Below are positions 8,148 through 43,405 of a DNA stretch of 64,000 bases, in pieces. The DNA is taken from positions 1-64,000 of the forward strand of contig NZ_JAAKEI010000011.1 of NCBI RefSeq assembly GCF_011039085.1. The letters run 5' to 3'. A program made the translations under genes and the position numbers. The notes under the pieces were generated by a model. The model made no database searches. It was given only the letters and a program-made list of their open reading frames with translations, and had not been told where the DNA came from. The stretch comes from Desulfovibrio sp. ZJ369 (lineage in GTDB: Bacteria > Desulfobacterota > Desulfovibrionia > Desulfovibrionales > Desulfovibrionaceae). Positions within the stretch are counted from its first letter, which is position 1, and every line of letters starts with the position of its first letter.

Positions 8148-8376
8148 GTAGACTAAAACGTTCGGAACAGCGTAAAGACGCAGGCGGCAATACTGCCGAG
8201 ATGCAAACAAAAGTGCGCAGGCGCGGCGGGGCATGCTTGCCGCCCGCTTTGCTCTTCAGCCGCCCCTTGTGACGCGGCACTGTAACGACGATCCCCGTGC
8301 TCCTGCCGCATACTCGACCGGAGCCTGAAAATGAGGCGCATTTTTTCCGAAATCTTCTCACCCTTTGGAGGCTCAC

Positions 8377-9753
8377 ATGGCTCAGTCTTTTAATGCGGCT
8401 GAATTGATTGCCGATGATAAAAAATACGTCTGGCATCACCTCACCCAGCACAAAGTCTTTGAAAAAGCCGATCCCACCATCTTTGTGGAAGGCAAGGGCA
8501 TGCGGATCAAAGACATCCACGGCAAAGAATATCTGGATGCCGTCTCCGGCGGCGTCTGGACGGTCAACCTCGGCTACGGCAACGAAACCCTGGTCAAAGC
8601 CGTGAACGATCAGCTCATGCAGCTCTGCTATTTCGCCAACGGCTACGGCAACATCCCCACCATTAAGTTCTCCAAAAAACTGATTGAAAAAATGCCCGGC
8701 ATGAGCCGCGTGTATCTTTCCAACTCCGGTTCGGAAGCCAACGAAAAGGCCTTCAAGATCGTCCGCCAGATCTCCCAGCTCAAGCACGGCGGCAAAAAGT
8801 ACAAAATCGTCTACCGCAACCGTGACTATCACGGCACCACCATCACCACGCTGAGCGCCTGCGGCCAGGAAGAGCGCAAAAACCAGTATGGCCCCTTCAC
8901 TCCCGGCTTTGTGGAATTCCCGGCATGCTCGGTATACCGCTCGCCCTACCCCGAAGGCACGGCCAATCTGGGCGAAAAGTTCGCGCGCGAGCTTGAAACC
9001 GTAGTGCAGAAAGAAGATCCGGACACCGTGGGCGCGGTGATCGTGGAGCCGATCACTGCCGGCGGCGGGGTGATCGTGCCGCCTGACGGCTATTACGAAA
9101 CCCTCACCGAAATCTGCAAAAAGTACGGTCTGCTGCTGATCATCGACGAAGTGGTCTGCGGTCTGGGCAGAACCGGCAAATGGTTCGGCTACCAGCACTT
9201 CAACGTCAAGCCCGACATCGTGACCATGGCCAAGGGCGTGGCCGCGGGCTACGCGCCCATTTCCTGCACGGTCACCACCGAGGAAGTCTTCCAGGACTTC
9301 ATTGCCGATCCCGCGGATCGTGACAGCTACTTCCGCGACATCAGCACCTTCGGCGGCTGCACCGCGGGCCCTGCCGCCGGTTACGCCAACATCAACTACA
9401 TGGAAGAGCACAAGGTCCTCGATAATGTGGTCAAAATGGGCGACTACCTGATGGACGGCCTGAAGGCTCTGGAAAAGAAGTACGAAATCATCGGCGACGT
9501 GCGCGGCAAGGGCCTGTTCTGCGGGCTGGAGCTGGTCAAGAACCGCGCCACCAAGGAGCCCGTATCCGAAGCCGTGGCCGGTCAGGTTGTGGGCGAATGC
9601 ATGAAGCAGGGCGTGATCATCGGCAAGACCAGCCGCTGCTTCCGCGAACTGAACAACACCCTCTGCCTGGCCCCGGCGCTGATCGCCACCACGGCCGAGC
9701 TTGACGAAGTCCTGAAGGCTCTGGACAAGGCTTTTCAGGTCGTAAAGGCGTAA
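8377..9753 (+). CDS. tpa: Taurine:pyruvate aminotransferase
   Basis: 458-residue class III PLP aminotransferase that transfers the amino group of taurine to pyruvate, giving sulfoacetaldehyde and L-alanine. Visible: the PLP-phosphate motif SNSGSEANEKAF (about 111-122), YRNRDYHGTT (about 147-156), the Asp in LLIIDEVVCGLGRTG (about 250-264), and the Schiff-base Lys in VTMAKGVAAGYAPIS (about 285). Length and N-terminal motifs fit Bilophila-type Tpa; related omega-amino-acid aminotransferases remain an alternative, but the sulfonate-type ABC importer downstream supports taurine. GGAGG precedes the ATG at 8377; an in-frame TTG at 8365 overlaps that ribosome site and is less likely. Expression appears sigma-54 dependent. 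Confidence 0.88.
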   Translation: MAQSFNAAELIADDKKYVWHHLTQHKVFEKADPTIFVEGKGMRIKDIHGKEYLDAVSGGVWTVNLGYGNETLVKAVNDQLMQLCYFANGYGNIPTIKFSKKLIEKMPGMSRVYLSNSGSEANEKAFKIVRQISQLKHGGKKYKIVYRNRDYHGTTITTLSACGQEERKNQYGPFTPGFVEFPACSVYRSPYPEGTANLGEKFARELETVVQKEDPDTVGAVIVEPITAGGGVIVPPDGYYETLTEICKKYGLLLIIDEVVCGLGRTGKWFGYQHFNVKPDIVTMAKGVAAGYAPISCTVTTEEVFQDFIADPADRDSYFRDISTFGGCTAGPAAGYANINYMEEHKVLDNVVKMGDYLMDGLKALEKKYEIIGDVRGKGLFCGLELVKNRATKEPVSEAVAGQVVGECMKQGVIIGKTSRCFRELNNTLCLAPALIATTAELDEVLKALDKAFQVVKA

Positions 9754-11646: not shown

Positions 11647-14600
11647 ATGAGCACACTATACTACAATATCATTGCCGCGGTCCTCGCCCTTGCCATTCTT
11701 TACGGCCTGCACCTGATGAGCAACGTCCAGACGGCCGTGCGCGGCAACAAGCTGTGCGCCATATCCATGGCCCTTGCCATCCTCATCACCATGTACAGGG
11801 ACAGTTCGCTCGGCTCTCCGGCCCTTTGGGTGGCCATAGCGTTGGGCACGGCATTCGGACTGTTTTTGTCCAACAAGGTGAAGATGATCCAGATGCCGCA
11901 GCTGGTGGCCTTTCTGCACGGCTTCGGCGGCGGCGCGGCGGCCATCGTGGGCCTGATCATGCTTCTGGACGTGGGCACCGCCTCCGCATTCCACCGCATT
12001 GACGCCTGCCTGGCGCTCTGTTCGGGCATGACGACCATCGCGGGTTCCTTTGTGGCCGCGGGCAAACTGCATCAGCTCCTGCCGCAAAAACCCATTGTGC
12101 TGACCAATCACAGCAAGATCATCAACGTCATTCTGGGCGTGATGCTCGTCTCCCTGTGCATTTACAACATTGCACCGAATTTTCTCCCCTCGTTTTTCAT
12201 TTTCCTGATGTTCGCCACGGGCATTCTCTTCGGCATCGTCTTCACCATTCGCGTGGGCGGCGCGGACATGCCCATCACCATTTCGCTGCTCAACTCCATG
12301 GGCGGCATTTCCTGCGCCATTGCGGGCTTTGCCGTGGCCGACCCGCTGCTTATCGCCGTGGGCGGCATCATCGGCTCCGCCGGTCTGATGCTCACGCGCG
12401 TCATGTGCAAGGCCATGAACCGCACGCTGATGCCCATCCTGCTGGGTCAATCCTCCGTAACCGGCAAGCCCGCCGCTCCGGTCGCGGCCGCGCCCAAGAC
12501 ATCCGCGCCCAGGGCATCCGCGCCCAAGGCCGAAGCGGCCGCGCAATCCGCCGGGCAGAAAGACGCTGCCATCGCCCAACTGCTGACCACGGCCAAAAAC
12601 GTGATCATCGTGCCCGGTTATGGCATGGCTCTGGCCCAGGCCCAGCACAAGGTCAAGCAACTGGCCGACGCCCTGGAAGCCAGAGGCGCAAAGGTCGAAT
12701 ACGCCATTCATCCGGTGGCGGGCCGCATGCCCGGGCACATGAACGTGCTTCTGGCCGAAGCCAATGTCGATTATGAGCATTTGCTGGAAATGGACACCGT
12801 CAATCCCATGTTCCCGGACGCGGATCTGGTGATTGTGGTGGGCGCCAACGACGTGGTCAATCCGGCGGCCAATACGGCCGAGGGAACGCCCATTTACGGC
12901 ATGCCCATTCTGGAGGCGGACAAGGCCAAGGCCGTGATCATCTGCAATTATGACGAAAAGCCGGGTTACGCGGGCGTGCCCAATCCGCTGTACACCAAGC
13001 CCGGCGTCTTCATGCTGCTGGGCGACGCGGCCAAGACCGTGGCGACGCTGGCAGGCTATGCCGCCGGGCAGGCTCCGGCCGCCGGGGCGCAAACGAACGT
13101 CGCGCCCAATGCCGATGCCCAGGCCGCCCAACTGCTGACCACGGCCAAAAACGTGATCATTGTGCCCGGCTACGGCATGGCTCTGGCCCAGGCCCAGCAC
13201 AAGGTCAAGCAACTGGCCGACGCCCTGGAAGCCAGGGGCGCAAAGGTCGAATACGCCATTCATCCGGTGGCGGGCCGCATGCCCGGGCACATGAACGTGC
13301 TTCTGGCTGAAGCCAATGTCGATTATGAGCATCTGCTGGAAATGGACACCGTCAACCCCATGTTCCCGGACGCGGATCTGGTGATCGTGGTGGGCGCCAA
13401 CGACGTGGTCAATCCGGCGGCCAATACGGCCGAGGGAACGCCCATTTACGGCATGCCCATTCTGGAGGCGGACAAGGCCAAGGCCGTGATCATCTGCAAT
13501 TATGACGAAAAGCCGGGCTATGCGGGCGTGGACAATCCGCTGTACACCAAGCCCGGCGTGATCATGATGCTCGGCGACGCGGCCAGGACCGTGGACAATC
13601 TTGTCAAGCTGGCTTCCGGTTCCGCGCCCGTGGCTGCGGCCCAGGCGGACGTCGCGCCCGATGCCGATGCCCAGGCCGCCCGACTGCTGACCACGGCCAA
13701 AAACGTGATCATCGTACCCGGCTACGGCATGGCTCTGGCCCAGGCCCAGCACAAGGTCAAACAACTGGCCGACGCCCTGGAAGCCAGGGGCGCAAAGGTC
13801 GAATACGCCATTCATCCGGTGGCGGGCCGTATGCCCGGCCACATGAACGTGCTTCTGGCTGAAGCCAATGTAGAGTATGAGCATTTGCTGGAAATGGACA
13901 CCGTCAACCCCATGTTCCCGGACGCGGATCTGGTGATCGTGGTGGGCGCCAACGACGTGGTCAATCCGGCGGCCAATACGGCCGAGGGAACGCCCATTTA
14001 CGGCATGCCCATTCTGGAGGCGGACAAGGCCAGGGCCGTGATCATCTGCAATTATGACGAAAAGCCGGGCTACGCGGGCGTGGACAATCCCCTGTACACC
14101 AGGCCCGACGTGATCATGATGCTCGGCGACGCGGCCAAGACTGTGGACAATCTCGTCAAGCTGGCTTCCGGTTCCGCGCCCGTGGCTGCGTCCGAAGCGC
14201 CCAAAAAGGAAGCCGCGCAAGATGCCCTGCAGGCCCTGAAGACCGCCAAAAACGTGATCATCGTGCCCGGTTACGGCATGGCTCTGGCCCAGGCCCAGCA
14301 CAAGGTCAAACAACTGGCCGACGCCCTGGAAGCCAGAGGCGCAAAGGTCGAATACGCCATTCATCCGGTGGCGGGCCGCATGCCCGGGCACATGAACGTG
14401 CTTCTGGCTGAAGCCAATGTAGAGTATGAGCATCTGCTGGAAATGGACACCGTCAACCCCATGTTCCCGAACGCGGATCTGGTGATCGTGGTGGGCGCCA
14501 ACGACGTGGTCAATCCGGCGGCCAATACGGCCGAGGGAACGCCCATTTACGGCATGCCCATTCTGGAGGCGGACAAGGCCAAGGCCGTGATCATCTGCAA

Positions 14601-14721
14601 TTATGACGAAAAACCGGGTTACGCGGGCGTGGACAATCCCCTGTACACCAGGCCGGGCGTAACTCTGATGCTGGGCGACGCAAGCGCCTCCTTGGACAAA
14701 CTTCTGGCAATGGTGCGCTAA
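11647..14721 (+). CDS. pntB: NAD(P) transhydrogenase subunit beta with four tandem NADP(H)-binding domains
   Basis: 1024 residues against about 460 for a normal PntB. Residues 1-275 form the membrane domain II, with the conserved His in QMPQLVAFLHGFGG and Asn in MPITISLLNSMGG used in proton translocation. An Ala/Pro/Ser linker (about 276-308) leads to domain III, present four times in frame: the shared NVIIVPGYGMALAQAQ motif begins near residues 318, 502, 686 and 869. Each copy keeps the NADP fingerprint GYGMALAQAQ, HPVAGRMPGHMNVLLAEA, VVGANDVVNPAANT and YAGV-NPLYT. Copies are near-identical in DNA (period 549-552 bp) but are joined by different Ala/Pro-rich linkers. All four look competent to bind NADP(H). 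The subunit should sit in the inner membrane with PntAB and recruit PntAA. Confidence 0.95.
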   Translation: MSTLYYNIIAAVLALAILYGLHLMSNVQTAVRGNKLCAISMALAILITMYRDSSLGSPALWVAIALGTAFGLFLSNKVKMIQMPQLVAFLHGFGGGAAAIVGLIMLLDVGTASAFHRIDACLALCSGMTTIAGSFVAAGKLHQLLPQKPIVLTNHSKIINVILGVMLVSLCIYNIAPNFLPSFFIFLMFATGILFGIVFTIRVGGADMPITISLLNSMGGISCAIAGFAVADPLLIAVGGIIGSAGLMLTRVMCKAMNRTLMPILLGQSSVTGKPAAPVAAAPKTSAPRASAPKAEAAAQSAGQKDAAIAQLLTTAKNVIIVPGYGMALAQAQHKVKQLADALEARGAKVEYAIHPVAGRMPGHMNVLLAEANVDYEHLLEMDTVNPMFPDADLVIVVGANDVVNPAANTAEGTPIYGMPILEADKAKAVIICNYDEKPGYAGVPNPLYTKPGVFMLLGDAAKTVATLAGYAAGQAPAAGAQTNVAPNADAQAAQLLTTAKNVIIVPGYGMALAQAQHKVKQLADALEARGAKVEYAIHPVAGRMPGHMNVLLAEANVDYEHLLEMDTVNPMFPDADLVIVVGANDVVNPAANTAEGTPIYGMPILEADKAKAVIICNYDEKPGYAGVDNPLYTKPGVIMMLGDAARTVDNLVKLASGSAPVAAAQADVAPDADAQAARLLTTAKNVIIVPGYGMALAQAQHKVKQLADALEARGAKVEYAIHPVAGRMPGHMNVLLAEANVEYEHLLEMDTVNPMFPDADLVIVVGANDVVNPAANTAEGTPIYGMPILEADKARAVIICNYDEKPGYAGVDNPLYTRPDVIMMLGDAAKTVDNLVKLASGSAPVAASEAPKKEAAQDALQALKTAKNVIIVPGYGMALAQAQHKVKQLADALEARGAKVEYAIHPVAGRMPGHMNVLLAEANVEYEHLLEMDTVNPMFPNADLVIVVGANDVVNPAANTAEGTPIYGMPILEADKAKAVIICNYDEKPGYAGVDNPLYTRPGVTLMLGDASASLDKLLAMVR
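12574..14721 (+). repeat. Four tandem ~552-bp coding repeats inside pntB
   Basis: The same reading-frame position (GTGATCATY after GCCAAAAAC) recurs at 12601, 13153, 13705 and 14254, so the period is 552, 552 and 549 bp. Cores of about 165 codons are nearly identical; differences cluster in the linkers (for example around 13070-13130, 13610-13680 and 14165-14240). Confidence 0.95.
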
Positions 14722-15082: not shown

Positions 15083-15838
15083 GTGCCCTGTCAGGATGAA
15101 GCTGACGTCAAAATCCGGGTGAATAATCTCACCAAGCGTTTTGGCGATCTCACCGTTCTTGATGGCATCAATTTCACCATCAAAAATGGAGAGCTGCTGG
15201 CCATCGTCGGCCCCACCGGTTGCGGCAAGACTACATTTTTGAACTGCCTTTCCAAACTCATGCCCGCCACTGAAGGCGATATTCTTATCGACGGGCAGGA
15301 AGCCAACCCCAAAAAACACAATATCGCCTATGTCTTTCAGGAGCCCACCTGCCTGCCCTGGCGCACGGTGCGCGAAAACGTGGCCTACGGCATGGAGGTC
15401 AAAGGCGTCGGCAAAGAGGAACGCTTCCAGCGCGCCTCGGACATTATGGACCTTGTGGGCCTTTCCTCCTGCGCCGATCTTTACCCCAATCAGGTTTCAG
15501 CCAGCATGATGCAGCGCATCGCGGTTTCCCGCGCCTTTGCGGTGAACCCCGACCTCTTGCTGATGGACGAGCCTTACGGCCAGTTGGACGTGAAGCTGCG
15601 CTTCTACCTTGAAGACGAACTGGTCAACCTCTGGCAAAAGCTGAACAGCACCATTCTCTTTGTCACCCACAACATTGAGGAGGCTGTCTATGTGGCCGAG
15701 CGCATCCTTGTGCTGACCAACAAGCCCACCAAGGTCAAGGCGGAAATCCAAGTGGATCTGCCCCGCCCCCGCAAACTCATCGACCCCAGATTTGTGGAAC
15801 TGCGCAGGCAGGTCACGGAGCTTATCCGCTGGTGGTAG
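15083..15838 (+). CDS. NitT/TauT-family ABC importer ATPase 1 (degenerate signature motif)
   Basis: 251-residue ABC ATPase of the SsuB/TauB/NrtD type. Walker A GPTGCGKT (43-50), Q-loop VFQEPTCLPW (84-93), Walker B LLLMDEP (158-164) and the switch His in FVTHNIEEA (His196) are intact. The ABC signature, normally LSGGQ/M, reads VSASM (138-142). GTG start at 15083 with AAGGAG 6 nt upstream. First gene of a run of six same-strand genes with short gaps. The motif pattern is complementary to that of the second ATPase at 17657, so the two probably form a heterodimer in which this protein's Walker/His side builds the active site. Confidence 0.9.
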   Translation: MPCQDEADVKIRVNNLTKRFGDLTVLDGINFTIKNGELLAIVGPTGCGKTTFLNCLSKLMPATEGDILIDGQEANPKKHNIAYVFQEPTCLPWRTVRENVAYGMEVKGVGKEERFQRASDIMDLVGLSSCADLYPNQVSASMMQRIAVSRAFAVNPDLLLMDEPYGQLDVKLRFYLEDELVNLWQKLNSTILFVTHNIEEAVYVAERILVLTNKPTKVKAEIQVDLPRPRKLIDPRFVELRRQVTELIRWW

Positions 15839-15880
15839 GCTTTGGCCCGCCCCCGCAAACGCAGCCGCCCGGAGGATGTT

Positions 15881-16675
15881 ATGGCTTACCAAACTGTTGT
15901 GGTCAAAGAACCGCCGCTGCTTCGAGCGCTTCCCTATATCAGCGTCATTGCTTTCTTTCTGATTTGGGAAACCGCAGTGCGCTCGGGCATGATTCCCCAG
16001 ACCCTGCTGGCCTCCCCGACGCAGGTCTTCCATGCTTTTATCGACAAGCTGACCAACCCCAATCCCGACGGGGCCGTGATGCTGACCCACTTCAAAACCA
16101 GCCTGACCGAAGCTTTCATCGGCTATGTGCTGGCGCTGCTGGTGGGTCTGCCCCTGGGGCTGGCCATGGGCTGGTTTAAAGTGGCCGAGGGCCTCTTCCG
16201 GCCTATTTTCGAGCTGATCCGGCCCATCCCGCCCATTGCCTGGATTCCGCTGACCGTGTTCTGGTTCGGCATCGGGCTGACAGGCAAGGTCTTTATCATC
16301 TGGATCGCGGGCATTGTGCCCTGCGTGATCAACGCCTATGTGGGCGTGCGCATGACCAATCCGGTTTTGATCCAGATGGCCAGGACCTACGGAGCCAACG
16401 ACTGGCAGATATTCACCCAGCTTTGCATCCCGTCCTCCCTGCCCATGGTTTTCGGCGCGCTGCAACTTGCTCTGGCCTACTGCTGGACCAACCTGGTGGG
16501 CGCCGAGCTGCTGGCCGCCGATTCCGGCCTGGGCTTTCTGATCACCATGGGCGGCCGTGTGGCCCGGCCTGATCTGATCGTGCTCGGCATGATCTGCGTG
16601 GGCATTTCGGGCGCGATCATCGGGATCATCATCGACTATGTCGAAAAACGACTGCTGGCGGGCATCAGGAGGTAA
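15881..16675 (+). CDS. NitT/TauT-family ABC importer permease 1
   Basis: 264 residues, about six membrane helices, with the SsuC/TauC-type blocks FELIRPIPPIAWIPLTVFWFGIG and the EAA-loop region MARTYGANDWQIFTQLCIPSSLPMVFGALQ that couples to the ATPase. The ATG at 15881 has GGAGG 5 nt upstream; an in-frame TTG at 15842 lacks a site. Its partner is the distinct permease encoded 3 nt downstream, so the channel is likely heterodimeric. Probable cargo: an alkanesulfonate such as taurine, judged by family and proximity to tpa. Confidence 0.9.
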   Translation: MAYQTVVVKEPPLLRALPYISVIAFFLIWETAVRSGMIPQTLLASPTQVFHAFIDKLTNPNPDGAVMLTHFKTSLTEAFIGYVLALLVGLPLGLAMGWFKVAEGLFRPIFELIRPIPPIAWIPLTVFWFGIGLTGKVFIIWIAGIVPCVINAYVGVRMTNPVLIQMARTYGANDWQIFTQLCIPSSLPMVFGALQLALAYCWTNLVGAELLAADSGLGFLITMGGRVARPDLIVLGMICVGISGAIIGIIIDYVEKRLLAGIRR

Positions 16676-16678
16676 TTC

Positions 16679-17527
16679 ATGAGCGGTTCTTCATCCATTG
16701 CCAACGAAACCGTTGACCACGCCGCAGAACGCGGACGGTTTACGTTCTACAAACTGATCACCAATACCTACTTTTTGTACGCCGTCTCGATTCTCGGCTT
16801 TTTCTGGCTCTGGCACTGGACGGCGGCCGAAAAGATCTTCCGGGACTCCCTGGCCACGCCCAAGGAAGTGCTGGACATGATGATCCGCCTGACCAGCATG
16901 AATTTCGCGGGCAGCAATCTCTGGGGCCACATCTGGGCCAGCTTCCAGCGCGTGCTCATCGGCTTTGTGCTGGCGAGCATCGTGGCCGTGCCCCTGGGCC
17001 TGTTCATGGCCCTGAACAAAACCGTGAACAGCATCGTCAAGCCGCTTTTCGACCTGTTCAAGCCCATGCCGCCCATCGCCTGGGTGTCCATTGCCATTCT
17101 CTGGTTCGGCATCGGCGAGTTTTCCAAGGTGTTCATCATCATCATCGGCACGTTCGTGCCCTGCCTGTTGAACGCCTACAACGGCGTGCGCCTGGTGGAT
17201 CCGGACCTGTACGACGTCATCCGGGTGCTGGGCGGCACGCGCAAGGACGAGATCTTCCATGTCTGCTTTCCGGCCTCCTTTCCGGCGGTCTTCGCGGGCC
17301 TGCAGATTTCGCTCAGCGCGGCCTGGACCTGCGTGCTCGCCGCCGAGCTGATGAACTCCCGCGACGGCCTGGGCTTTTTGATCAAGCGCGGCATGGACAC
17401 GCACCAGCCGTCCCTGGTTCTCAGCGGCATGCTGCTGATTGCGGCCGCGGCTTGGATAAGCTCCCTGGGCGTGGGCTTGCTGGAGCGCAAGCTCTGCCCC
17501 TGGAAGCGCAGCATTGACAATGTCTGA
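16679..17527 (+). CDS. NitT/TauT-family ABC importer permease 2
   Basis: 282 residues with an N-terminal cytoplasmic stretch and about six membrane helices. Diagnostic blocks: LFDLFKPMPPIAWVSIAILWFGIGEFSKVFII and the coupling loop VIRVLGGTRKDEIFHVCFPASFPAVFAGLQISLSAAWTCVLAAEL. AGGAGG precedes the ATG. It differs clearly from permease 1, which argues against simple duplication and for a heteromeric transporter. Confidence 0.9.
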   Translation: MSGSSSIANETVDHAAERGRFTFYKLITNTYFLYAVSILGFFWLWHWTAAEKIFRDSLATPKEVLDMMIRLTSMNFAGSNLWGHIWASFQRVLIGFVLASIVAVPLGLFMALNKTVNSIVKPLFDLFKPMPPIAWVSIAILWFGIGEFSKVFIIIIGTFVPCLLNAYNGVRLVDPDLYDVIRVLGGTRKDEIFHVCFPASFPAVFAGLQISLSAAWTCVLAAELMNSRDGLGFLIKRGMDTHQPSLVLSGMLLIAAAAWISSLGVGLLERKLCPWKRSIDNV

Positions 17528-17540
17528 TGCCACGGCCCGC

Positions 17541-17567
17541 AGCAATTTTGCTTTGAAAGTGCTCTGG
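17541..17567. repeat. Degenerate TAGAGC-family palindrome inside the ABC operon
   Basis: AGCAATTTTGCTTTGAAAGTGCTCTGG resembles the copy at 53008-53038 with several mismatches. It lies in the 129-nt gap between permease 2 and ATPase 2. Confidence 0.4.
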
Positions 17568-17656
17568 CGCCTGCCCGAGCAAACGCCGCCACCAAGGCGC
17601 GCGCACCACGGTTGCGCGGTTCACCGCCGAAGCGGGCGTAGTAAAAGGATAGACAC

Positions 17657-18442
17657 ATGAGCGAGCAGAACGACAAGTGTGCGCCCACGCTGAAAATCCA
17701 CTGTGAGGACATCAGCAAGACCTTCATTCAGAAGGGCAATCAGGAAGTGCCGGTGATCAGGGACATCACCCTGGATGTTTACGAAAACGAATTCCTGGTC
17801 GTCCTGGGTCCGGGCCAGAGCGGCAAATCCACGCTGCTGAAGATTATTGCCGGGCTGGAAATTCCGGACAAGGGCTATGTGACCCTGGACGGCGAGCCCG
17901 TGACCGGCCCCGGGCCGGATCGCGGCATCGTGTTTCAGAGCTACATGCTCTTTGCCTGGAAAACCGTGCGCGATAACGTGGAACTGGGCCTCAGACTGCG
18001 CGATGTGCCCGCGGCCGAACGGCACAACATCGCCGACCACTACATCAAGATGGTGGGCCTGCAAGGCTTTGAGAATCATTACCCCCACCAGCTCTCCGGC
18101 GGCATGAAACAGCGCGTGGGCATTGCCCGGGCCTATGCCAACTCGCCCAAGGTCATGCTCTTGGACGAGCCCTTCGGCCAGCTGGACGCCCAGACCCGCA
18201 TGTACATGCAGGTGGAGACGGCCCGGATCTGGGAACAGGACAAACGCACCGTGCTCTTTGTCACCAACAATATCGACGAAGCGCTGTACCTGGGCGATCG
18301 CATTGTGCTGATGGAAGGCAAACTGCCGGGCACCATCAAGACCGAATACCCCATCAACCTGCCGCGGCCGCGCGAGCATACCTCCATGGAGCTTTTGGAA
18401 CTGCGCGAGGAAATCATCGCCAATACGGAGCTGATTCTCTGA
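17657..18442 (+). CDS. NitT/TauT-family ABC importer ATPase 2 (His-switch replaced by Asn)
   Basis: 261-residue ABC ATPase of the TauB/SsuB type. Walker A GPGQSGKST (51-59), Q-loop VFQSYMLFAW (92-101), signature LSGGM (146-150) and Walker B VMLLDEP (166-172) are intact. The switch-loop His is Asn204, in FVTNNIDEA, where the usual sequence is THD/THN. The defect lies on the opposite face from that of ATPase 1, so both fall into the same composite nucleotide site of a heterodimer. 129 nt separate it from permease 2. Confidence 0.9.
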   Translation: MSEQNDKCAPTLKIHCEDISKTFIQKGNQEVPVIRDITLDVYENEFLVVLGPGQSGKSTLLKIIAGLEIPDKGYVTLDGEPVTGPGPDRGIVFQSYMLFAWKTVRDNVELGLRLRDVPAAERHNIADHYIKMVGLQGFENHYPHQLSGGMKQRVGIARAYANSPKVMLLDEPFGQLDAQTRMYMQVETARIWEQDKRTVLFVTNNIDEALYLGDRIVLMEGKLPGTIKTEYPINLPRPREHTSMELLELREEIIANTELIL

Positions 18443-18443
18443 T

Positions 18444-18914
18444 ATGGCTGCGGGCACGCTGATCTTCAGCCTGCTGGCCGGGGGCCTGGGCGCGATCCTG
18501 GTCTGGTGGGCGGCGCGCGCCGTCTGTGCGCGTTTTGCCGCCGGGGTCGCCCTTCGCGGCAATGCGGAAGGCAACGGGCGGCCGCAAGAGGCTGCGGCCT
18601 TGGACAGCGGGCAGATCAGCACGGAAGAGATCAAGGCCGTCTACCGCCGGGTCTTTTGGCGACGCGTGGGCGGCATGCTGCTCTGCCTGGCGGCTTTTGG
18701 GGCATGGCTCATGGGCGCGCACTGGCTGACGAGCCTGCTGCTCGCGGGCATGGGCTGCCTGCTGCAATATCTTGCATACCGCTTGCGCACCTGCTATGCT
18801 TTGCGTATAGCTCAGCAAAAGCAAGAACAGGAGATGACGGCCATGAGCGGCGTCGCAACAGCCGGACCGCCCAGGGCTTCAATGGAAAAGAAACACCGCT
18901 GCCCGGTGTTGTAG
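18444..18914 (+). CDS. Small membrane protein of the ABC importer operon, unknown function
   Basis: 156 residues, not recognised. One hydrophobic segment at residues about 4-24, a soluble Gln/Glu-containing stretch with STEEIKAVYRRVFWRR (about 58-73), then two hydrophobic segments (about 75-112), and a short charged tail. The ATG lies one base after the stop of ATPase 2, so translation is coupled. Position between the transporter core and its binding protein suggests an accessory or regulatory subunit, but nothing in the sequence identifies a function. Confidence 0.75.
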   Translation: MAAGTLIFSLLAGGLGAILVWWAARAVCARFAAGVALRGNAEGNGRPQEAAALDSGQISTEEIKAVYRRVFWRRVGGMLLCLAAFGAWLMGAHWLTSLLLAGMGCLLQYLAYRLRTCYALRIAQQKQEQEMTAMSGVATAGPPRASMEKKHRCPVL

Positions 18915-19055: not shown

Positions 19056-20135
19056 ATGTTGAAAAAATGGATTTCTCTGGCGCTGACCGCCGTCTTTGTG
19101 CTGAGCATCGCGGGCATGGCCATGGCCGCGGACAAGCTGGTCAAAGTGCCCACTGCCTGGATGGACGAGCATGAGACCTTTCTGATGTGGTATGCCAAGG
19201 AAAAAGGCTGGGACAAAGAAGCCGGCCTGGACGTTGAAATCAAATACTTCAACTCCGGCGCGGACATTCTGAACGCCCTGCCCTCCGGCGAATGGGTGTA
19301 TGCGGGCATGGGCGCGGTTCCGGCCATGCTGGGCAATCTGCGCTACGACACCATTGTCATTGCCAACGGCAATGACGAATCCATGACCAATGGCGTGGTA
19401 GTGCGCAAGGACAGCCCCATTGCCAAGGTCAAGGGCTGGAACAAAGACTATCCCGACGTGCTGGGCAGCCCCGAAACCGTGAAGGGCAAAACCTTCCTGG
19501 TCACCACCGTGAGCTCGGCCCACTATGCGCTTTCCTCCTGGCTTAACGTCCTGGGCCTCAAGGACAGCGACGTGGTGATCAAGAACATGGATCAGGCCCA
19601 GGCCGTGGGCGCCTTTGAAAACAAGATCGGCGACGGCGTGGCCCTCTGGGCGCCGCACCTCTTCTTGGTTATGGACAAGGGCGGCGTGCTTGCCGCGGAT
19701 CTCAAGATGTGCAAAAAGGGCAACCCCATCGTCTTGATTGCCGATGCCAAGTATGCCAATTCTCATCCTGAAATCACCGCCAAATTCCTGGGCATCTATC
19801 TGCGCGCCGTGAACATGCTCCAGAAGGAGAGCGCGGAAAGCCTGGTGCCCGAATACCGCCGCTTCTTCCTGGAATGGGCCGGCAAGGATTATGACAAGAA
19901 GCTGGCGCTCAAGGACATCCAGAAGCATCCCGTGTACAACCTGGACGAGCAGCTGGTGATGTTCGACGACTCCAAGGGCCAGAGCCAGGCCCAGGAGTGG
20001 CAGGGCGAAATCGCCGACTTCTTTACAACCGTGGGTCGCATCACTCCTGCGGAAGCCAAGAAGGTCCAGGACGGCAAGTATGCCACCAACAAGTTCCTGA
20101 AGATGGTCAAGACCCCGATCCCGGCTTACAAGTAA
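19056..20135 (+). CDS. NitT/TauT-family ABC importer substrate-binding protein
   Basis: 359 residues with a clear signal peptide (MLKKWISLALTAVFVLSIAG, cleavage after AMA, residue about 24). The mature protein is SsuA/TauA-like: VPTAWMDEHETFLMWYAKEKGWDKEAGLDVEIKYF, GADILNALPSGEWVYAGMGAVPAM, and GKTFLVTTVSSAHYALSSWL. The start at 19056 is favoured by AGGAGGAT and by the signal peptide; the frame is open further upstream without either. It closes the operon and is followed by a strong terminator. The ligand is probably an organosulfonate or a related small anion; taurine is inferred from context. Confidence 0.9.
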   Translation: MLKKWISLALTAVFVLSIAGMAMAADKLVKVPTAWMDEHETFLMWYAKEKGWDKEAGLDVEIKYFNSGADILNALPSGEWVYAGMGAVPAMLGNLRYDTIVIANGNDESMTNGVVVRKDSPIAKVKGWNKDYPDVLGSPETVKGKTFLVTTVSSAHYALSSWLNVLGLKDSDVVIKNMDQAQAVGAFENKIGDGVALWAPHLFLVMDKGGVLAADLKMCKKGNPIVLIADAKYANSHPEITAKFLGIYLRAVNMLQKESAESLVPEYRRFFLEWAGKDYDKKLALKDIQKHPVYNLDEQLVMFDDSKGQSQAQEWQGEIADFFTTVGRITPAEAKKVQDGKYATNKFLKMVKTPIPAYK

Positions 20136-20168: not shown

Positions 20169-20205
20169 AGGGCCTTCTCCCCTTGGGGAGAAGGCCCTCT
20201 TTTTT
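20169..20205 (+). terminator. Rho-independent terminator of the ABC importer operon
   Basis: A perfect 14-bp stem AGGGCCTTCTCCCC / GGGGAGAAGGCCCT with a TT loop, followed by C and seven T. Confidence 0.95.
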
Positions 20206-24190: not shown

Positions 24191-24424
24191 TACGCATGTT
24201 CCGCAAAGAGTAATGTACCCTTACATCTTTCAGTAAATATTCCATTGTCACTTCTGCGTCACGCCCGGCGGACGCTCCCCAAAAGCTCCACCGAAGCATA
24301 GCGGTTTCCCGTGCCGCCAGAAACGCAACACGCCGAATCCCGCGCGAAAGCGCACGGCGAAAGGAGGAAAAAGAAAATCACACAGGCTTTGTTCGATCAT
24401 CACCACCCCAAGCGAGGAGTCGTC

Positions 24425-25540
24425 ATGAAGAAACTGTTTTCACTGTTTTTATCCTTGGCTTTTATCCTGTCCTGCGGGTTTTCCACGGCGTCGGCAAAGA
24501 CCTATGAGCTGAAAATCCAGACCTCCCTGGCCACCTCAAGCATGTATTTCAAGACGCTGGAGCGCCTGAAAAAAAATATTGAGGAGCTCTCTCAGGGACA
24601 AATCAAGGTCGAACTGTTCGCGGACGGCGCCATTGTCAAAGGTTTCGAGATTTTCGACGCCGTAAGCGAAGGCCTGGTCAACGGCGGCATGAGCTGGACG
24701 CACTGGGCCTCGGGCAAGCACCCCGCGGGCACGCTGTTTTCAGCCCCCATCGGCGGCCTGGGTTACGGCCTCGACCAGATGGCGCAGCTCTCCTGGATGT
24801 TTGAAGGCGAGGGCCTCAAACTGCTCAACGAATACTATCAGAACATCCTGAAGCTGGACATGATGTCCTGGCCCGTGCTGCCCATGGGTCCCGAATGCTT
24901 CGGCTGGTTCAACAAAAAATACACGTCCCACACGGAGATCAACAAACTGACGTTCCGGGCGCCTCCGGGCGTGCCCGCTGAAGCCTTCAAGGCAATGGGC
25001 ATGCCCGTGGTGTCCATGGCCGGCGGCGATATCATCCCGGCCGCGCAGCGCGGCGCCATTGACGCGGCCGAATGGATCGCCCCGGGCGAGGACATCGTCA
25101 TGGGCTTTCCCGAAATCTGGAAGCACTACTATCTGCAGGGCCTGCACCAGGCCATTTCCATCGGCGACGTGTACATCAACAAGACCTGGTTCGAGGCGCT
25201 GCCCAAGCACCTCCAGGCGGCCATCAACGTGGCCATGAAGGCCTGCGTCACCGATCAGTTGCTGAACGGCATCAAGGTCAACTCCCAAGCTCTGGAAAAG
25301 ATGGTGCGCGAAGACGGCGTGGTCATCGAGGAAACTCCGGCCGACTACTACCCCGCCTTCATGAAGGCGGCGCGCACGGTCATCGCCAAGTACGCCAAGG
25401 ATCCCTTCTTCAAGAAGGTGCACGACTCCCAGATCGCCTGGGCCAAGCTCACCGTGCCTTTCCAGGTGCGTTCCAACGGCCTGTATTACATGATGGGCAA
25501 AACCGCCATGGATGAGGGCATCATCACCGACTACAAATAA
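24425..25540 (+). CDS. dctP: TRAP transporter periplasmic substrate-binding protein
   Basis: 371 residues with a signal peptide (MKKLFSLFLSLAFILSCGFS, cleavage after ASA). The mature protein is DctP/TakP-like: LFADGAIVKGFEIFDAVSEGLVNGGMSWTHWASGKHPAGTLF, and the signature arginine region NKLTFRAPPGVPAEAFKAMGMPVVSMAGGDIIPAAQRGAIDAAEW, where the conserved Arg usually binds a carboxylate. The closest-looking group binds 2-oxo or hydroxy acids, often with a cation. GAGGAG precedes the ATG at 24425. It heads a dctPQM operon, with dehydrogenases downstream that suggest the cargo is an alcohol or hydroxy acid. Confidence 0.9.
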   Translation: MKKLFSLFLSLAFILSCGFSTASAKTYELKIQTSLATSSMYFKTLERLKKNIEELSQGQIKVELFADGAIVKGFEIFDAVSEGLVNGGMSWTHWASGKHPAGTLFSAPIGGLGYGLDQMAQLSWMFEGEGLKLLNEYYQNILKLDMMSWPVLPMGPECFGWFNKKYTSHTEINKLTFRAPPGVPAEAFKAMGMPVVSMAGGDIIPAAQRGAIDAAEWIAPGEDIVMGFPEIWKHYYLQGLHQAISIGDVYINKTWFEALPKHLQAAINVAMKACVTDQLLNGIKVNSQALEKMVREDGVVIEETPADYYPAFMKAARTVIAKYAKDPFFKKVHDSQIAWAKLTVPFQVRSNGLYYMMGKTAMDEGIITDYK

Positions 25541-25678
25541 ACGACTGGCGCGAACGCGCGGGAACCCTTGCTCCCGCGCGTTCGCGGCATGCCGCGCACG
25601 TCGACGGAAAACGTCGGTTTTTTCGCCGGACCGACCGCCCCGCACAACGACGGGAGGCTTGTTGCACAGGAGGACGTT

Positions 25679-26263
25679 ATGTCTCAATCGCTTGAACTGG
25701 CCATGGCGCAGGTAGCGCCGGGCCCCAAAAAAATCGTCGCCGCCGTGGACGGGTTCAATGCCGGCGTGGGCAAGCTTACCGCATGGCTGGCCATCCCCAT
25801 GATGCTTTCCATCATGTACGAAGTGATCATGCGCAATATCTTCACCGCGCCCTCCATCTGGGCCATGGACATGGCCATAATCCTCTACGCCATCCACTTC
25901 ATGCTCGGCTCTCCTTACTGTCTGCTGACCGGCAACCACATCCGCACGGACTTCTTCTACCACGCCTGGTCGGTCAAAACCAAAGCCGCGGTGGACATGG
26001 CCAACTACATCATCTTTTTCTTTCCCGCGCATCTGGTCTTTCTGTATATCGCCATCGCCTATGCCTGGAAATCCTTCATACAGAATGAGGTTTCCGTCAC
26101 CAGCCCGTGGATGCCGGTCATCTGGCCAGCCAAGTTCGCCATTCCCGTATGCGTGGCCCTGACCCTGCTGCAGGGAGTCTCTGAAGTGATCAAGTGCTGG
26201 TACCGCTGGAAGACCGGCCAAAATCTCTGGAACAGCGACCAACTCGGCGAAGCCAAGGACTAG
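25679..26263 (+). CDS. dctQ: TRAP transporter small membrane subunit
   Basis: 194 residues with four membrane helices, the standard DctQ layout. VGKLTAWLAIPMMLSIMYEVIMRNIFTAPSIWAMDMAIILYA and GSPYCLLTGNHIRTDFFY (after the first two helices) match the family. AGGAGG lies 5 nt before the ATG at 25679. It has an N-terminal cytoplasmic stretch of about 25 residues. Works with DctM in sodium- or proton-driven uptake. Confidence 0.9.
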   Translation: MSQSLELAMAQVAPGPKKIVAAVDGFNAGVGKLTAWLAIPMMLSIMYEVIMRNIFTAPSIWAMDMAIILYAIHFMLGSPYCLLTGNHIRTDFFYHAWSVKTKAAVDMANYIIFFFPAHLVFLYIAIAYAWKSFIQNEVSVTSPWMPVIWPAKFAIPVCVALTLLQGVSEVIKCWYRWKTGQNLWNSDQLGEAKD

Positions 26264-26297
26264 CCGCCGGTCAGGGCATCTGAAGGAGATCACCCTC

Positions 26298-27620
26298 ATG
26301 GATATATCAAATGAAATGCTGGCGGTCCTGTCTATCATCTCTATGTTCGGCCTGTTCTGTACGGGCTTCCCCATTTCCTACACCATGATTTTCAGCGGCC
26401 TGCTGTTCGGCTTTCTCGGCTTCGGCAAGCTGGTCTTCCACCTGCTGACCATCCAGTTCTGGCAGGTCATGAGCGACCCGGTCATGGGCGCCATCCCCTT
26501 CTTTCTGCTCATGGGCTATCTTCTGGAAGGCGCCGGGCTCATGGACAGGCTGTTCCGATCATTCCAGTTGCTGCTGGCGCGGCTGCCCGGCTCCCTGTAC
26601 GGGGCCATCAGCCTGACGGGCACCATTTTCGCCGCGGCCACGGGCATTGTGGGCTCTTCGGTCAACCTGCTCTGCATCATGGCCGAGCCCTCCATGCGCC
26701 GCAGCGGCTACGACATCCGCATGGGCGCGGGCTGCATCGCCGCCGCCGGAACCCTGGGCATTCTCATCCCGCCCAGCATCATGCTGGTGGTGCTCGGCCC
26801 CATCATGGGTCTGCCCATCACGGACCTTTTCGCCGCCGCCATCCTGCCCGGCCTTCTGCTGGCGGGCATTTACATCGCCTATTCGCTGATCAGGTGCGCC
26901 ATCTGGCCCAAGTACGGTCCGCCTCTGCCCAAGGAGGAGCGCGCCACCAGCATGGTTCGTGTATTCAAGGAGCTGTTCATCGGGGCGGTGCCGCTGGCCC
27001 TCCTCATTTTCGCCACTCTGGGCAGCATTCTCTGCGGCATCGCCACGCCCACCGAAGCCTCGGCCTGCGGGGCCTTCGGCGCGCTGGTTCTGGTGATCGC
27101 CTACGGCAAATTCACCTGGAAGGGAGTGTCCAAGGCCCTGCACAGCACCATTCTGCTTTCGTCCATGATCCTGATCATGATCGCCTCCTGCAATTTCTTC
27201 GGCGCCGTGTTTTCCCGTCTGGGCGGCGCGGTGGCTCTGTCCAACGCCCTGCTGGGCATGGATATCGCCCCCATGTTCATGCTGGTTCTGATCATGGCCA
27301 TCATCTTCTTCATGGGCTGGGCCATGGAGTGGGTGCCCATCGTGCTCATCTTGGTGCCCCTGCTGATTCCCGTGGTGGAAGCCATGCACTTCGACAAGCT
27401 GTGGTTCTGCCTGGTGGTGGCCGTGACCTTGCAGACTTCCTGGCTCTCGCCGCCGGTGGCCCTCTCCTGTTACTTTATCAAGGGAAGCCTGCCGCACTGG
27501 CCGCTGAACGACATCTATAAAGGCATGTTTCAGTATATCGGCTGCCAGTTGGTGGGGCTTATCCTGATCATCATGTTTCCCGCCATCGTGACCTGGCTGC
27601 CCAATTATCTGAAACAATAA
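26298..27620 (+). CDS. dctM: TRAP transporter large membrane subunit
   Basis: 440 residues and about 12 membrane segments, the usual DctM length. Visible family blocks: GFPISYTMIFSGLLFGFLGFG, GAIPFFLLMGYLLEGAGLMDRLFRSFQLLLARLPG, AATGIVGSSVNLLCIMAEPSMRRSGYD, AAAGTLGILIPPSIMLVVLG, and GIATPTEASACGAFGALV (cation-site region). AGGAGAT precedes the ATG. 34 nt after dctQ. Confidence 0.93.
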   Translation: MDISNEMLAVLSIISMFGLFCTGFPISYTMIFSGLLFGFLGFGKLVFHLLTIQFWQVMSDPVMGAIPFFLLMGYLLEGAGLMDRLFRSFQLLLARLPGSLYGAISLTGTIFAAATGIVGSSVNLLCIMAEPSMRRSGYDIRMGAGCIAAAGTLGILIPPSIMLVVLGPIMGLPITDLFAAAILPGLLLAGIYIAYSLIRCAIWPKYGPPLPKEERATSMVRVFKELFIGAVPLALLIFATLGSILCGIATPTEASACGAFGALVLVIAYGKFTWKGVSKALHSTILLSSMILIMIASCNFFGAVFSRLGGAVALSNALLGMDIAPMFMLVLIMAIIFFMGWAMEWVPIVLILVPLLIPVVEAMHFDKLWFCLVVAVTLQTSWLSPPVALSCYFIKGSLPHWPLNDIYKGMFQYIGCQLVGLILIIMFPAIVTWLPNYLKQ

Positions 27621-27681
27621 CATCCGCCCGTGGGCGCGGCCGCGTCTTGGCCGCGTCCACGCCAACACCCGGAGTGCGCCC

Positions 27682-28398
27682 ATGCGCATCAGCACCGTCC
27701 TGCTGCTCCTCTGCCTCCTGCTCCCGGCCGTGGCGCTCTTCCGGCCTCAGGCCGCTTTTGCCGGTCGCGAGATCCCCCGGACCTGCGTCACGGCAGCGCA
27801 ATGCGCCACGGATCGAAAAAGCCAACCCGTACTCTTTGCCTCCTACATTTTCGGGCTGCCCAGGGCGCAGGCTGTGAAACTGCCGGGCGCGCGGCCCGGC
27901 CAGGGGGAATTCGCCAACGACGTCATCCTGCCCGAAGCCTCGTTCGCCGGGCTGTCCTGGACCGTGCGACTGGAGTTCCGCGAGGATGCGCTGGTGCGCG
28001 TGAGCCTGATGGGGGCCGGCGACGCCCAACGGCTTGCGGCGGTCAACAGCAGCCTGCGCGAGATGGGCTTTGAAATGCTGGCCATGCTCGCGGACGGCGC
28101 GCGTCTGGACTTTCCGGCCATCCTCAAGACCGGGGGCCCCGACGAATTGCAGCGCCGGATTAAAAATCTGCACGACAAAAAAAATCCGGTCCGCCTGAGC
28201 TACGCCTGGTTCGACACCCGGCAGATCAGCCGCGAGACAAAAGTCATGGCGCGCAATCTCTCCGAACTTTTGCAGGTGGTAGCGGCCGAAACGCGCGAAG
28301 CCGAGGTGACCCTGCTGGGCGACGGCAAGGGCAATGTGGTCCATATACTCGTGGATTTCAGCCTGCCGGTGCTGGAGCTGCAAACCTATAACCGGTAA
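27682..28398 (+). CDS. Exported protein of unknown function at the end of the TRAP operon
   Basis: 238 residues, not recognised. A signal peptide covers residues 1-28 (hydrophobic LLLLCLLLPAVALF, cleavage near AAFA). The mature part contains RTCVTAAQC and is otherwise soluble, with mixed alpha/beta character; the C-terminus reads VHILVDFSLPVLELQTYNR. It starts 61 nt after dctM on the same strand and is followed by a terminator, so it is probably the last gene of the dctPQM transcript and may act in the periplasm with DctP. Confidence 0.7.
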   Translation: MRISTVLLLLCLLLPAVALFRPQAAFAGREIPRTCVTAAQCATDRKSQPVLFASYIFGLPRAQAVKLPGARPGQGEFANDVILPEASFAGLSWTVRLEFREDALVRVSLMGAGDAQRLAAVNSSLREMGFEMLAMLADGARLDFPAILKTGGPDELQRRIKNLHDKKNPVRLSYAWFDTRQISRETKVMARNLSELLQVVAAETREAEVTLLGDGKGNVVHILVDFSLPVLELQTYNR

Positions 28399-28456
28399 AG
28401 CAGAGCCATTTTCCCAACGCAACCCACTCCAGGCAGCTCCGTTTTTATGACGGTGG

Positions 28457-28495
28457 AAAGGCCTGCCCGGCAACTGGCCGGGCAGGCCTTTTTTC
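28457..28495 (+). terminator. Rho-independent terminator of the TRAP operon
   Basis: A 15-bp stem AAAGGCCTGCCCGGC / GCCGGGCAGGCCTTT with a 5-nt loop, followed by a T-rich run. Confidence 0.93.
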
Positions 28496-28550
28496 TTTTG
28501 AAATTATTCTCATGGCCGGTTCCCGGCCTTTTCTCCGAAAAAAAGATGCG

Positions 28551-28567
28551 TGTCGCATTTGCGATAG
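28551..28567. promoter_or_regulatory. Operator-like site upstream of the dehydrogenase operon
   Basis: Exact copy of the 17-bp site at 24174 (TGTCGCATTTGCGATAG), again preceded by an A-run. It is about 127 bp before the dehydrogenase ATG and follows the TRAP terminator, as expected for the start of a separate co-regulated transcript. Confidence 0.65.
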
Positions 28568-28692
28568 AAAAACAGCCCCAAAAAGCAAAAACATGATGGC
28601 AACCGCCGGAAGGTGGAAAGCCTGCCGCATTGCCGCGGCATCCGTTCAGCCCGCCGCCGGGATCACTTCAGTATCAGGAGGAGTGCAAGACT

Positions 28693-29844
28693 ATGTTTTC
28701 GAGTTTCCAAACCGTTGAGCGGGTGGTGTACGGCCGGGGCGTCGCGGCGAAACTGGGCGACGAGGTTCTGCGCCTGGGCTGCCGCAGCGTCGCCGTGATC
28801 ACGGACAAGGGCCTGGTGAACGCAGGCATCCACACGCCGCTGCTCGAATCCCTCAAAAACGCGGGCGTGGACGCTCTGCTCTATGACAAGGCGGAGCTGG
28901 ATCCCACGCCGGAATCCATTGAAAAGGCCGCGGCCTGGGTCAAGGCGAACAAGGTCGATCTGCTGGTGGGCCTGGGCGGCGGCAGCTCCCTGGACAGCAC
29001 CAAGGCCACGGCCCTGCTGGCCGTGCATGAGGGCCCCATGAGCCGGTACTTCGGCCTGCATAAAGTGCCCTCGGCCTGCATGCCCACCATCCTGATTCCC
29101 ACCACCGCGGGCACGGGCAGCGAAATGACCTCCAATGCGGTGCTCAATGATCCGATCACCAACTCCAAGCAGGGCACGGTCAGCGATTATCTCTACGCCA
29201 GGGTGGTCCTTCTGGATCCGGAACTGACCGTGGGCCTGCCGCCCTTTTACACGGCCATCACCGGTCTGGACGCCCTGGTGCACTGCATTGAGTCCTATGT
29301 GAGTCTGCATGCCACGCCCTTCACGGATGCCCTGAATCTTCAGGCCATGCGCATGATCTCGGACAACATCCGCAGGGTCTACGCCAACGGCGGCAATATG
29401 GAAGCGCGCGAGCAGATGCTCTACGGCGCGGCCATCAGCGGCATGGGCTTTTCCAACACTCAGAACGGGATCATTCACGCCCTGGGCATGTCCGTGCCCT
29501 CGGAGCATCATATCCCTCATGGCCTGATGATGGCGGTCTGCGCGCCCATGGGCATGACCTTCAACGCCCTGGCCGCGCCGGAGAAGTTCGCGGTCATTGC
29601 GGAAATCCTGGGCAGCGCGCCTGCCGGAGCCTCCACGCGCGAAAAGGCCAAGAGCGCCGCCGCGGGCTTTGTCAGCCTGATGGATGACCTGGACATCAAG
29701 CAGGGCCTGTCCAATTACGGCATCCGCCGCGAGGAGCTGCGCACCGTGGCCGAGCTGGGCGCGGCCTACAAGCGGCTGATGGACAGCAATCCGCGCAAGG
29801 GCACGGCCGACGTGCTCGAAAAGCTTTTGGAACAGTTTTATTGA
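28693..29844 (+). CDS. Iron-containing (group III) alcohol dehydrogenase 2
   Basis: 383 residues. Fe-ADH motifs: GLGGGSSLDSTKATALL (nucleotide-binding), IPTTAGTGSEMTSNAVL, and metal-ligand blocks ITGLDALVHCIESYVS, GIIHALGMSVPSEHHIPHGLMMAV. Only moderately like the first Fe-ADH of the window, so not a recent duplicate. AGGAGGAG precedes the ATG at 28693; an upstream in-frame ATG is weaker. With the aldehyde dehydrogenase 118 nt downstream it probably oxidises the TRAP-imported substrate to an aldehyde. The reverse reaction (for example reduction of sulfoacetaldehyde) cannot be excluded. Confidence 0.88.
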   Translation: MFSSFQTVERVVYGRGVAAKLGDEVLRLGCRSVAVITDKGLVNAGIHTPLLESLKNAGVDALLYDKAELDPTPESIEKAAAWVKANKVDLLVGLGGGSSLDSTKATALLAVHEGPMSRYFGLHKVPSACMPTILIPTTAGTGSEMTSNAVLNDPITNSKQGTVSDYLYARVVLLDPELTVGLPPFYTAITGLDALVHCIESYVSLHATPFTDALNLQAMRMISDNIRRVYANGGNMEAREQMLYGAAISGMGFSNTQNGIIHALGMSVPSEHHIPHGLMMAVCAPMGMTFNALAAPEKFAVIAEILGSAPAGASTREKAKSAAAGFVSLMDDLDIKQGLSNYGIRREELRTVAELGAAYKRLMDSNPRKGTADVLEKLLEQFY

Positions 29845-42691: not shown

Positions 42692-43402
<711 letters not shown>

Positions 43403-43405
43403 GTC

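Follow-up and report, generated by a model that had tools for sequence, protein, structure and literature searches.

Whether importers of the ATP-binding cassette (ABC) type must fire both of their ATP sites is a long-standing question. It has usually been studied in symmetric machines of the MalK or BtuD type, in which single-site mutants are hard to interpret. An operon of Desulfovibrio sp. ZJ369 may be a natural single-site importer. It lies in a 64,000-nucleotide stretch (contig NZ_JAAKEI010000011.1, positions 1 to 64,000), referred to here as the window, and its ATPase and permease genes occupy positions 15083 to 18442 of the forward strand. We propose that it encodes a heteromeric taurine/sulfonate importer of the NitT/TauT type with one hydrolyzing and one degenerate ATP site, and we put the probability of this reading at roughly 0.6. 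As the importer would share its family with NrtBCD and CmpBCD, both of which have been solved, direct comparison would be possible. For the gut and environmental bacteria that respire sulfonates and make hydrogen sulfide, the operon would also be a candidate system for taurine/sulfonate uptake.

Two ATPases with complementary motifs

The operon starts with the ATPase gene ATP1 (15083..15838, + strand; 251 amino acids). It is followed on the same strand by the permease genes PERM1 (15842..16675) and PERM2 (16679..17527) and by the second ATPase gene, ATP2 (17657..18442; 261 amino acids). Both ATPases were identified from their open reading frames (ORFs), Pfam matches (PF00005), NCBIfam scores, and orthologues. 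Both permeases are BPD_transp_1 proteins (PF00528). The closest NCBIfam model to PERM1 is TauC, below its cut-off. The PERM1 start is listed at a TTG (15842), and an in-frame ATG at 15881 is a possible real start. An earlier note on this DNA had claimed two distinct ATPases and two distinct permeases, and the four genes bear this out. ATP1 and ATP2 are 35% identical in pairwise comparison, and PERM1 and PERM2 are 37% identical. Therefore, each kind of subunit is encoded by two separate genes. A pattern search for the coupling loops of the permeases gave no match. The same operon encodes a substrate-binding protein (SBP) with PF13379/PF09084 (NMT1_2/NMT1) matches, and the ATPases, permeases, and SBP all exceed the Pfam cut-offs, as is expected of a NitT/TauT-type importer.

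A normal ABC signature motif reads LSGG[QEM]. ATP1 has VSASM instead (residues 138 to 142; 15494..15508), together with an intact Walker A (GPTGCGKTT), Walker B (LLMDEP), and switch histidine (VTHN; His196, 15668..15670). ATP2 has an intact signature, LSGGM (residues 146 to 150; 18092..18106), and Walker B (LLDEP), and the switch (H-loop) histidine is replaced by Asn204 (VTNN; 18266..18268). Its Walker A, GPGQSGKST (GPGQSGKS at 17807..17830), is also odd. All of these positions are on the + strand. The assignment of the two defects in the earlier note was thus confirmed in the sequence, and it holds in the orthologues described below.

The nucleotide-binding domains (NBDs) of ABC transporters pair head to tail, so that each composite ATP site is formed by the Walker/His side of one and the signature of the other. 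In such a heterodimer, site 1 would be built from the Walker motifs and histidine of ATP1 and the LSGGM of ATP2, all of them normal. Site 2 would be built from the odd Walker A and Asn204 of ATP2 and the VSASM of ATP1, so that all three oddities would share one site. The geometry therefore supports the earlier suggestion that the two defects meet in a single composite site. At the level of sequence, this is the arrangement of a degenerate site: a signature defect in one NBD and switch and Walker defects in the other. Loss of the Walker B glutamate, which is common but not universal in degenerate-site transporters, was not seen. The catalytic glutamate (DEP) is intact in all 118 ATP1-type and all 106 ATP2 proteins in the tally given below, and the Walker A lysine is kept in both ATPases. 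Since this glutamate is retained, the label "degenerate" for site 2 is a prediction.

Conservation of the motifs and a sister type

We surveyed other genomes from both ATPases. In a scan seeded with ATP1, the best 80 of 510 candidates were retained; most of these loci are in Desulfobacterota and some in Bacillota (Peptococcaceae, Desulfosporosinus, and others). The odd signature and the intact switch are part of its search patterns, which are thus biased to trait-bearing loci and their close relatives. Because these patterns contain the trait, the survey was repeated from ATP2 in 297 genomes of the class, many of them common to both surveys. The ATP2 profile has the switch Asn, which is a small bias, and nine candidates per genome were scored at first look, which could hide members. 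There were 63 ATP2 rows in 54 genomes at 364 bits or more, and the remainder scored 315 bits or less. Only part of the rows below 364 bits was examined (20 single-ATPase loci and two loci of the sister type described below), and odd members are possible among the others.

Of the 63 ATP2 loci, 60 have ATP1 in the same stretch: 52 of the 55 that were newly fetched, all 7 that had been retrieved earlier, and the window. Among the 52 newly fetched pairs, the ATP1 signature was VSASM (30), LSASM (11), ISASM (8), LSVSS (2), or LSSSM (1), always with the switch histidine, and ATP2 had LSGGM plus Asn in all 55 new loci. In one of the three loci without a partner (L156, genome G273), an ATP1 with VSASM and the histidine is on another contig. 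The other two are considered with the mechanism.

After 38 duplicates were dropped, the full tally held 121 loci with an orthologue, 103 of them with both genes. The single-gene loci are at or near a contig edge or are of the sister type with a second ATPase that scored below the line. The 118 ATP1-type proteins (115 of the main type and 3 of the sister type) all have the switch histidine, and 117 have the Walker A GPTGCGK; the remaining one has undetermined letters there. No main-type ATP1 has Gly at signature position 3 or 4 (0/115), and position 4 is Ser in every one (115/115). The ATP1 of L253 has Thr in place of the D-loop Asp. All 106 ATP2 proteins from non-duplicate loci have the LSGGM signature and a Walker A of the form GPGQ[SCA]GK. 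None has the switch histidine; 104 have Asn and 2 have Ser. The earlier note had proposed a check of whether the two defects occur together in orthologous operons. They do, with no counter-example among the 103 non-duplicate loci with both genes, and later loci (L302 to L325, partly from the same genomes) added no exception. All 20 of the single-ATPase relatives examined were normal, with LSGG and His (L028-L037, L203, L206, L207, and L265-L271). ATP1 was absent from the four ATP2-lacking genomes of the genus that were tested (G001, G006, G012, and G020).

The asymmetric motif pattern is conserved across distant bacteria. Its odd letters vary as little as the normal ones do, which argues that the pattern is more than chance. 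A frameshift or pseudogene was rejected, as the frames are open and the letters conserved. Sequencing error was also rejected, because independent genomes have identical letters.

A sister type was found in four genomes (L204, 3724-6016; L205, 3653-5227; L252, 3352-4874; and L303, 691-2247). It consists of an SBP, a single permease, and two ATPases encoded side by side. In all four pairs, one ATPase (ATP2') has [IL]SGGM with Asn at the switch, and the other (ATP1') has [IL]SAGM with His. To judge from these motifs, the sister type is a milder form of the complementary arrangement in another gene context. The sister-type ATPase with the degenerate switch has a Walker A like that of ATP1, GPTGCGK (GPTSCGK in L205). 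A larger stretch around L204 (L330) holds genes for two URO-D-type proteins, a B12-binding protein, and CobW, which suggests a corrinoid methyltransferase cluster. By homology, these corrinoid-type genes are common to the stretch around L303 (L328). Around L252 (L331), the sole match was a relative of the B12-binding protein about 8 kb away. Outside the class, the ATP1 profile detected 3 of 249 genomes in the phylum of G301 and 11 of 296 in that of G302, and the ATP1' profile detected 6 of 398 and 14 of 394. These sets overlap, and G584 and G954 have the sister type. The system is sparse outside the class.

ATP1 and ATP2 each formed one clade in both a quick and a careful tree. In the quick tree, ATP1' was sister to ATP1, and ATP2' grouped with ATP1 and ATP1' and not with ATP2. 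In the careful tree, the three ATP2' sequences were not one clade (they were in 38% of 200 bootstraps). An approximately unbiased test on the smaller careful tree rejected ATP2 plus ATP2' as one clade (p = 0.006), which speaks against a single origin of the Asn. This test rests on three ATP2' sequences, and the trees include the trait's own columns. On a plain reading of the trees, then, the switch histidine would have been lost twice, in ATP2 and in ATP2'. Other possible explanations are gene conversion between the neighboring ATP1' and ATP2', the small number of sequences, and a single early loss of the histidine followed by its regain in ATP1, which takes the same number of changes as two losses.

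Proposed mechanism and substrate

We propose that the SBP hands substrate to a PERM1-PERM2 channel that is powered by one ATP1 and one ATP2. Binding of ATP at both sites would shut the NBD dimer. The consensus site (Walker A/B and His of ATP1, LSGGM of ATP2) would then hydrolyze its ATP and reset the dimer. The degenerate site (Walker A and Asn204 of ATP2, xS[AS]S of ATP1) would bind ATP and hydrolyze it slowly or not at all, its main role being that of a hinge or clamp. Each cycle would then cost one ATP, which may benefit anaerobes that respire sulfonates. Here we infer the assembly as a heterodimer, the loss of hydrolysis at one site, the stoichiometry, and the substrate. The structural part of the proposal is based on the sandwich that NBDs form in general and on the chains of NrtBCD and CmpBCD as the nearest folds of ATP1, and the kinetic part is drawn from degenerate-site exporters as they are treated in the available text of PMC7756269. 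A heterodimer is favored because either homodimer would be severely impaired, with xSxS at both signatures of ATP1-ATP1 and Asn at both switches of ATP2-ATP2.

The SBP gene (19056..20135, + strand) encodes a protein that matches NMT1_2, scores below the SsuA_fam cut-off, and has a signal-like N terminus as judged by eye. TauA (6ssy) was its only PDB sequence match at an E value of 0.01 or less. In a search with the SBP model (mean predicted local distance difference test score, 92.6), the closest fold was TauA (19 to 21% identity), followed by SsuA (15 to 21% overall). In a separate observation, a second SBP gene, 49 to 57% identical to that of the window, follows the first in L039, L043-L046, L048, and L049. 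It perhaps serves another substrate for the same importer.

Upstream of the operon is a gene for a class III aminotransferase (8365..9753, + strand) that resembles taurine:pyruvate aminotransferase (Tpa) and is 72% identical to that of L048. It reaches no equivalog cut-off, and its identity as Tpa is unproven. We labeled the neighborhoods of 82 orthologous loci by homology (E value of 1e-30 or less; stretch lengths differ). A class III aminotransferase was near the operon in 35, of which 20 were at least 45% identical to that of L048. Aldehyde dehydrogenase was near it in 19, alanine dehydrogenase in 15, and Xsc in 16, with at least 60% identity in 12 of these 16. In all, 42 of the 82 loci had an aminotransferase or Xsc match within the stretch. 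The Xsc of L054 and the alanine dehydrogenase of L109 exceed curated cut-offs. The window's own genome encodes Xsc and HpsG (sulfopropanediol dehydratase), both above cut-off and on other contigs. Together, the SBP and its neighbors suggest that the substrate is likely to be taurine or a related sulfonate.

Downstream, genes for a tripartite ATP-independent periplasmic (TRAP) transporter (DctP, DctQ, and DctM), an iron-dependent alcohol dehydrogenase, and an aldehyde dehydrogenase stand in a row (24311-31495). The best model for the alcohol dehydrogenase (28630..29844, + strand) is SarD sulfoacetaldehyde reductase (517 bits; cut-off, 700). This row is a possible second sulfonate cluster.

Several points weigh against the proposal. 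The catalytic glutamate and Q-loop glutamine are intact in both ATPases, and therefore the second site may still hydrolyze ATP. When two defects are spread over two subunits, chance alone puts them in one site in half of all cases, which makes their co-location weak evidence for each independent origin. Because a single origin has this even chance, the weight of the co-location comes from conservation and recurrence. Two ATP2 genes were found without ATP1: that of L161 (G271) is near a contig start in an 88%-complete assembly, and that of L170 (G202) is in a 93%-complete assembly of 820 contigs. The DNA of L170 matches L171 at 99.4% until a break inside the SBP gene. As to the substrate, no subunit reaches the cut-off of a taurine-specific family. 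The ATPases score 193 and 221 bits with the TauB model (cut-off, 357), the permeases score 147 and 165 bits with TauC (cut-off, 342), and the SBP scores 58 and 53 bits with TauA models (cut-offs, 304 and 490). There was no aminotransferase or Xsc match in the fetched stretch of 40 of the 82 loci, some of which were ended by contig ends. Finally, the taurine respirer Taurinivorans muris uses TRAP transporters and has no tauABC cluster, according to the available text of PMC10507020.

The alternative that survives best leaves the mechanism as proposed and changes only the substrate, to another sulfonate or a small anion. HpsG in the genome and the TRAP transporter nearby would fit this, as would the 40 loci just mentioned and the corrinoid-methyltransferase-like genes that adjoin the sister type. 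Against this, TauA is the closest solved relative of the SBP by both sequence and fold, and the aminotransferase, alanine dehydrogenase, and Xsc recur near the operon. We lean toward taurine and regard a different substrate as a serious minority possibility.

The remaining alternatives concern the ATPases themselves. The heterodimer might form and yet hydrolyze ATP at both sites, with the Ser-rich signature and Asn switch tolerated and the asymmetry a conserved quirk of descent. The retained glutamate, glutamine, and Walker A lysine are consistent with this. So is the signature Ser, which is kept in VSASM and is directly followed by a helix (residues 140 to 153) in the AlphaFold model of ATP1. 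Free tolerance, however, would predict occasional reversions, and there was no Gly in 115 main-type ATP1 signatures and no His in 106 ATP2 switches. The available text of PMC6703430 also calls the switch histidine of LptB essential. We consider hydrolysis at both sites unlikely.

More doubtful still is the idea that the degenerate site, instead of being a mechanical clamp, has a regulatory role, sensing the ATP/ADP ratio or some other nucleotide and gating uptake accordingly. The distinctive Walker A of ATP2, invariant in form, would fit altered nucleotide handling, and the PDB titles of the related NrtBCD and CmpBCD structures mention PII and a regulatory domain. However, ATPases of 251 and 261 amino acids leave no room for an extra regulatory domain, and the sister type pairs its degenerate switch with an ATP1-like Walker A. 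Weakest of all, two homodimers on separate permease pairs are imaginable from the two permease genes and from the two SBP genes adjoining the operon in some close relatives, but this is highly improbable given that ATP1 and ATP2 occur together in 60 of 63 cases, that each homodimer would have two defective sites, and that the sister type has two ATPases with a single permease gene. A heterodimer with one hydrolyzing site is the arrangement that we prefer.

The operon extends beyond position 18442 on the same strand, through a small ORF and the SBP gene to a terminator-like hairpin. The small ORF (18444..18914, + strand), between ATP2 and the SBP gene, encodes a predicted protein of 156 amino acids that matched neither Pfam nor NCBIfam models at the thresholds applied. 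It has weakly conserved homologues (25 to 55% identity) in some close relatives. The hairpin (20169-20198, + strand) has 13 pairs and a T-run. Its weight as the end of the operon comes from its position and stem length, because terminator-like matches in the region are not above chance (5 observed versus 5.9 expected). Elsewhere in the window, a gene for an NAD(P) transhydrogenase beta subunit (11647-14721) has four tandem copies of NADP-binding domain III. The four 300-nucleotide repeats are at 12520, 13072, 13624, and 14173, and the others are 83 to 93% identical to the reference copy. L263 has the same four-copy form, the truncated ORFs of L158 and L159 show three copies, and L061 shows a single one.

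Comparison with known transporters

The operon resembles TauABC and SsuABC in its TauA/SsuA-fold SBP, TauC-like permeases, and TauB-like ATPases. TauABC and SsuABC use one ATPase and one permease, whereas here there are two of each, and no Tau or Ssu cut-off was reached. The best NCBIfam model for both ATPases was SaoA (NF040729). Neither ATPase reached its cut-off of 360 (ATP1, 211 bits; ATP2, 243), and the SaoA system (SAO) was rejected.

The earlier note had taken two-ATPase importers to be unusual in this family. That view gave way to the solved cyanobacterial nitrate and bicarbonate importers NrtBCD and CmpBCD, which have heteromeric NBD pairs of the NitT/TauT-type ATPase family (NrtC/NrtD and CmpC/CmpD). 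Their chains are the nearest solved folds of the ATP1 model and the best PDB sequence matches of the ATP2 profile. The ATPases score 181.7 and 219.8 bits with the ntrCD subfamily model, below its cut-off of 291.8. There are further differences. In the PDB alignments, CmpC, CmpD, and NrtD have normal motifs, LSGG or ISGG with His (the NrtC letters were not displayed). Also, NrtC (682 amino acids) and CmpC (665 to 690) include an SBP-like part that the shorter ATP1 and ATP2 lack.

Complementary defects also occur in another ABC ATPase family. The window encodes a LivF/LivG pair (42695-44227, - strand) in which LivF has LSGGE with Gln at the switch and LivG has LSYGN with His. We examined 30 loci seeded with this LivF, among many more matches, and read the switch from alignment columns. 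LivF had LSGGE plus Gln in all 30. LivG was found in 25 of them, the window pair included, and always had L[SAP]YG plus His. Here the change is from His to Gln, in contrast to His to Asn in ATP2. LivF and LivG are not the closest family, as the window pair scores 66 to 75 bits on the ATP1 and ATP2 profiles versus at least 345 for orthologues. The solved LivF-like protein 1ji0 has the same switch sequence as LivF, VEQN, and the archaeal LivG 1g6h keeps LSGG. The complementary LivF/LivG pattern is not described in the available text of PMC6703430, and we found no published description of it in titles and abstract openings, a search mostly outside the subscription literature.

We tentatively raise the possibility that one-site hydrolysis evolved repeatedly in binding-protein-dependent importers. 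In this clade, the partner of an ATP1-like subunit would have lost the histidine on two or more occasions (in ATP2 and in ATP2'), and LivF, which faces LivG, would have lost it independently. If this is true, a single hydrolytic site per cycle would be a recurrent importer design that saves energy or sets irreversibility, and the graded signatures from SGG through SAG to SAS would show a route to it.

TM287/288-type exporters have degenerate sites in which the catalytic glutamate is not kept. The likeness that the earlier note drew to them is therefore partial: the defects are gathered in one composite site, as in TM287/288, TAP, and ABCG5/G8, but the glutamate, often changed in those exporters, is kept at the suspected degenerate site. 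The system here also differs in being an importer with separate subunits and an SBP. According to the available text of PMC7756269, the signature is changed in all human degenerate sites, and the Walker B glutamate is changed next most frequently. In ABCG5/G8, it is Walker A that is altered along with the signature, and the signature and Walker A changes of ATP1 and ATP2 resemble this combination. For Pdr5, the same text reports a loss of function when motifs of this kind were changed to the consensus form.

The same note had set the complementary pattern apart as one of asymmetric exporters. This contrast was too sharp, because LivF/LivG importers have the pattern and the importers RbsA and NupO have one degenerate ATP site (PMC11466899, available text). 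RbsA and NupO share this feature with the operon described here but, according to the same text, are type II importers with fused NBDs and a second Walker A without Lys. Among titles and abstract openings, mostly outside the subscription literature, we found no published NitT/TauT importer with a degenerate site. Degenerate-site importers as such are thus already known, and what the conserved motifs of ATP1 and ATP2 add to them is a clade of NitT/TauT-type importers with a conserved, probably single-site ATPase.

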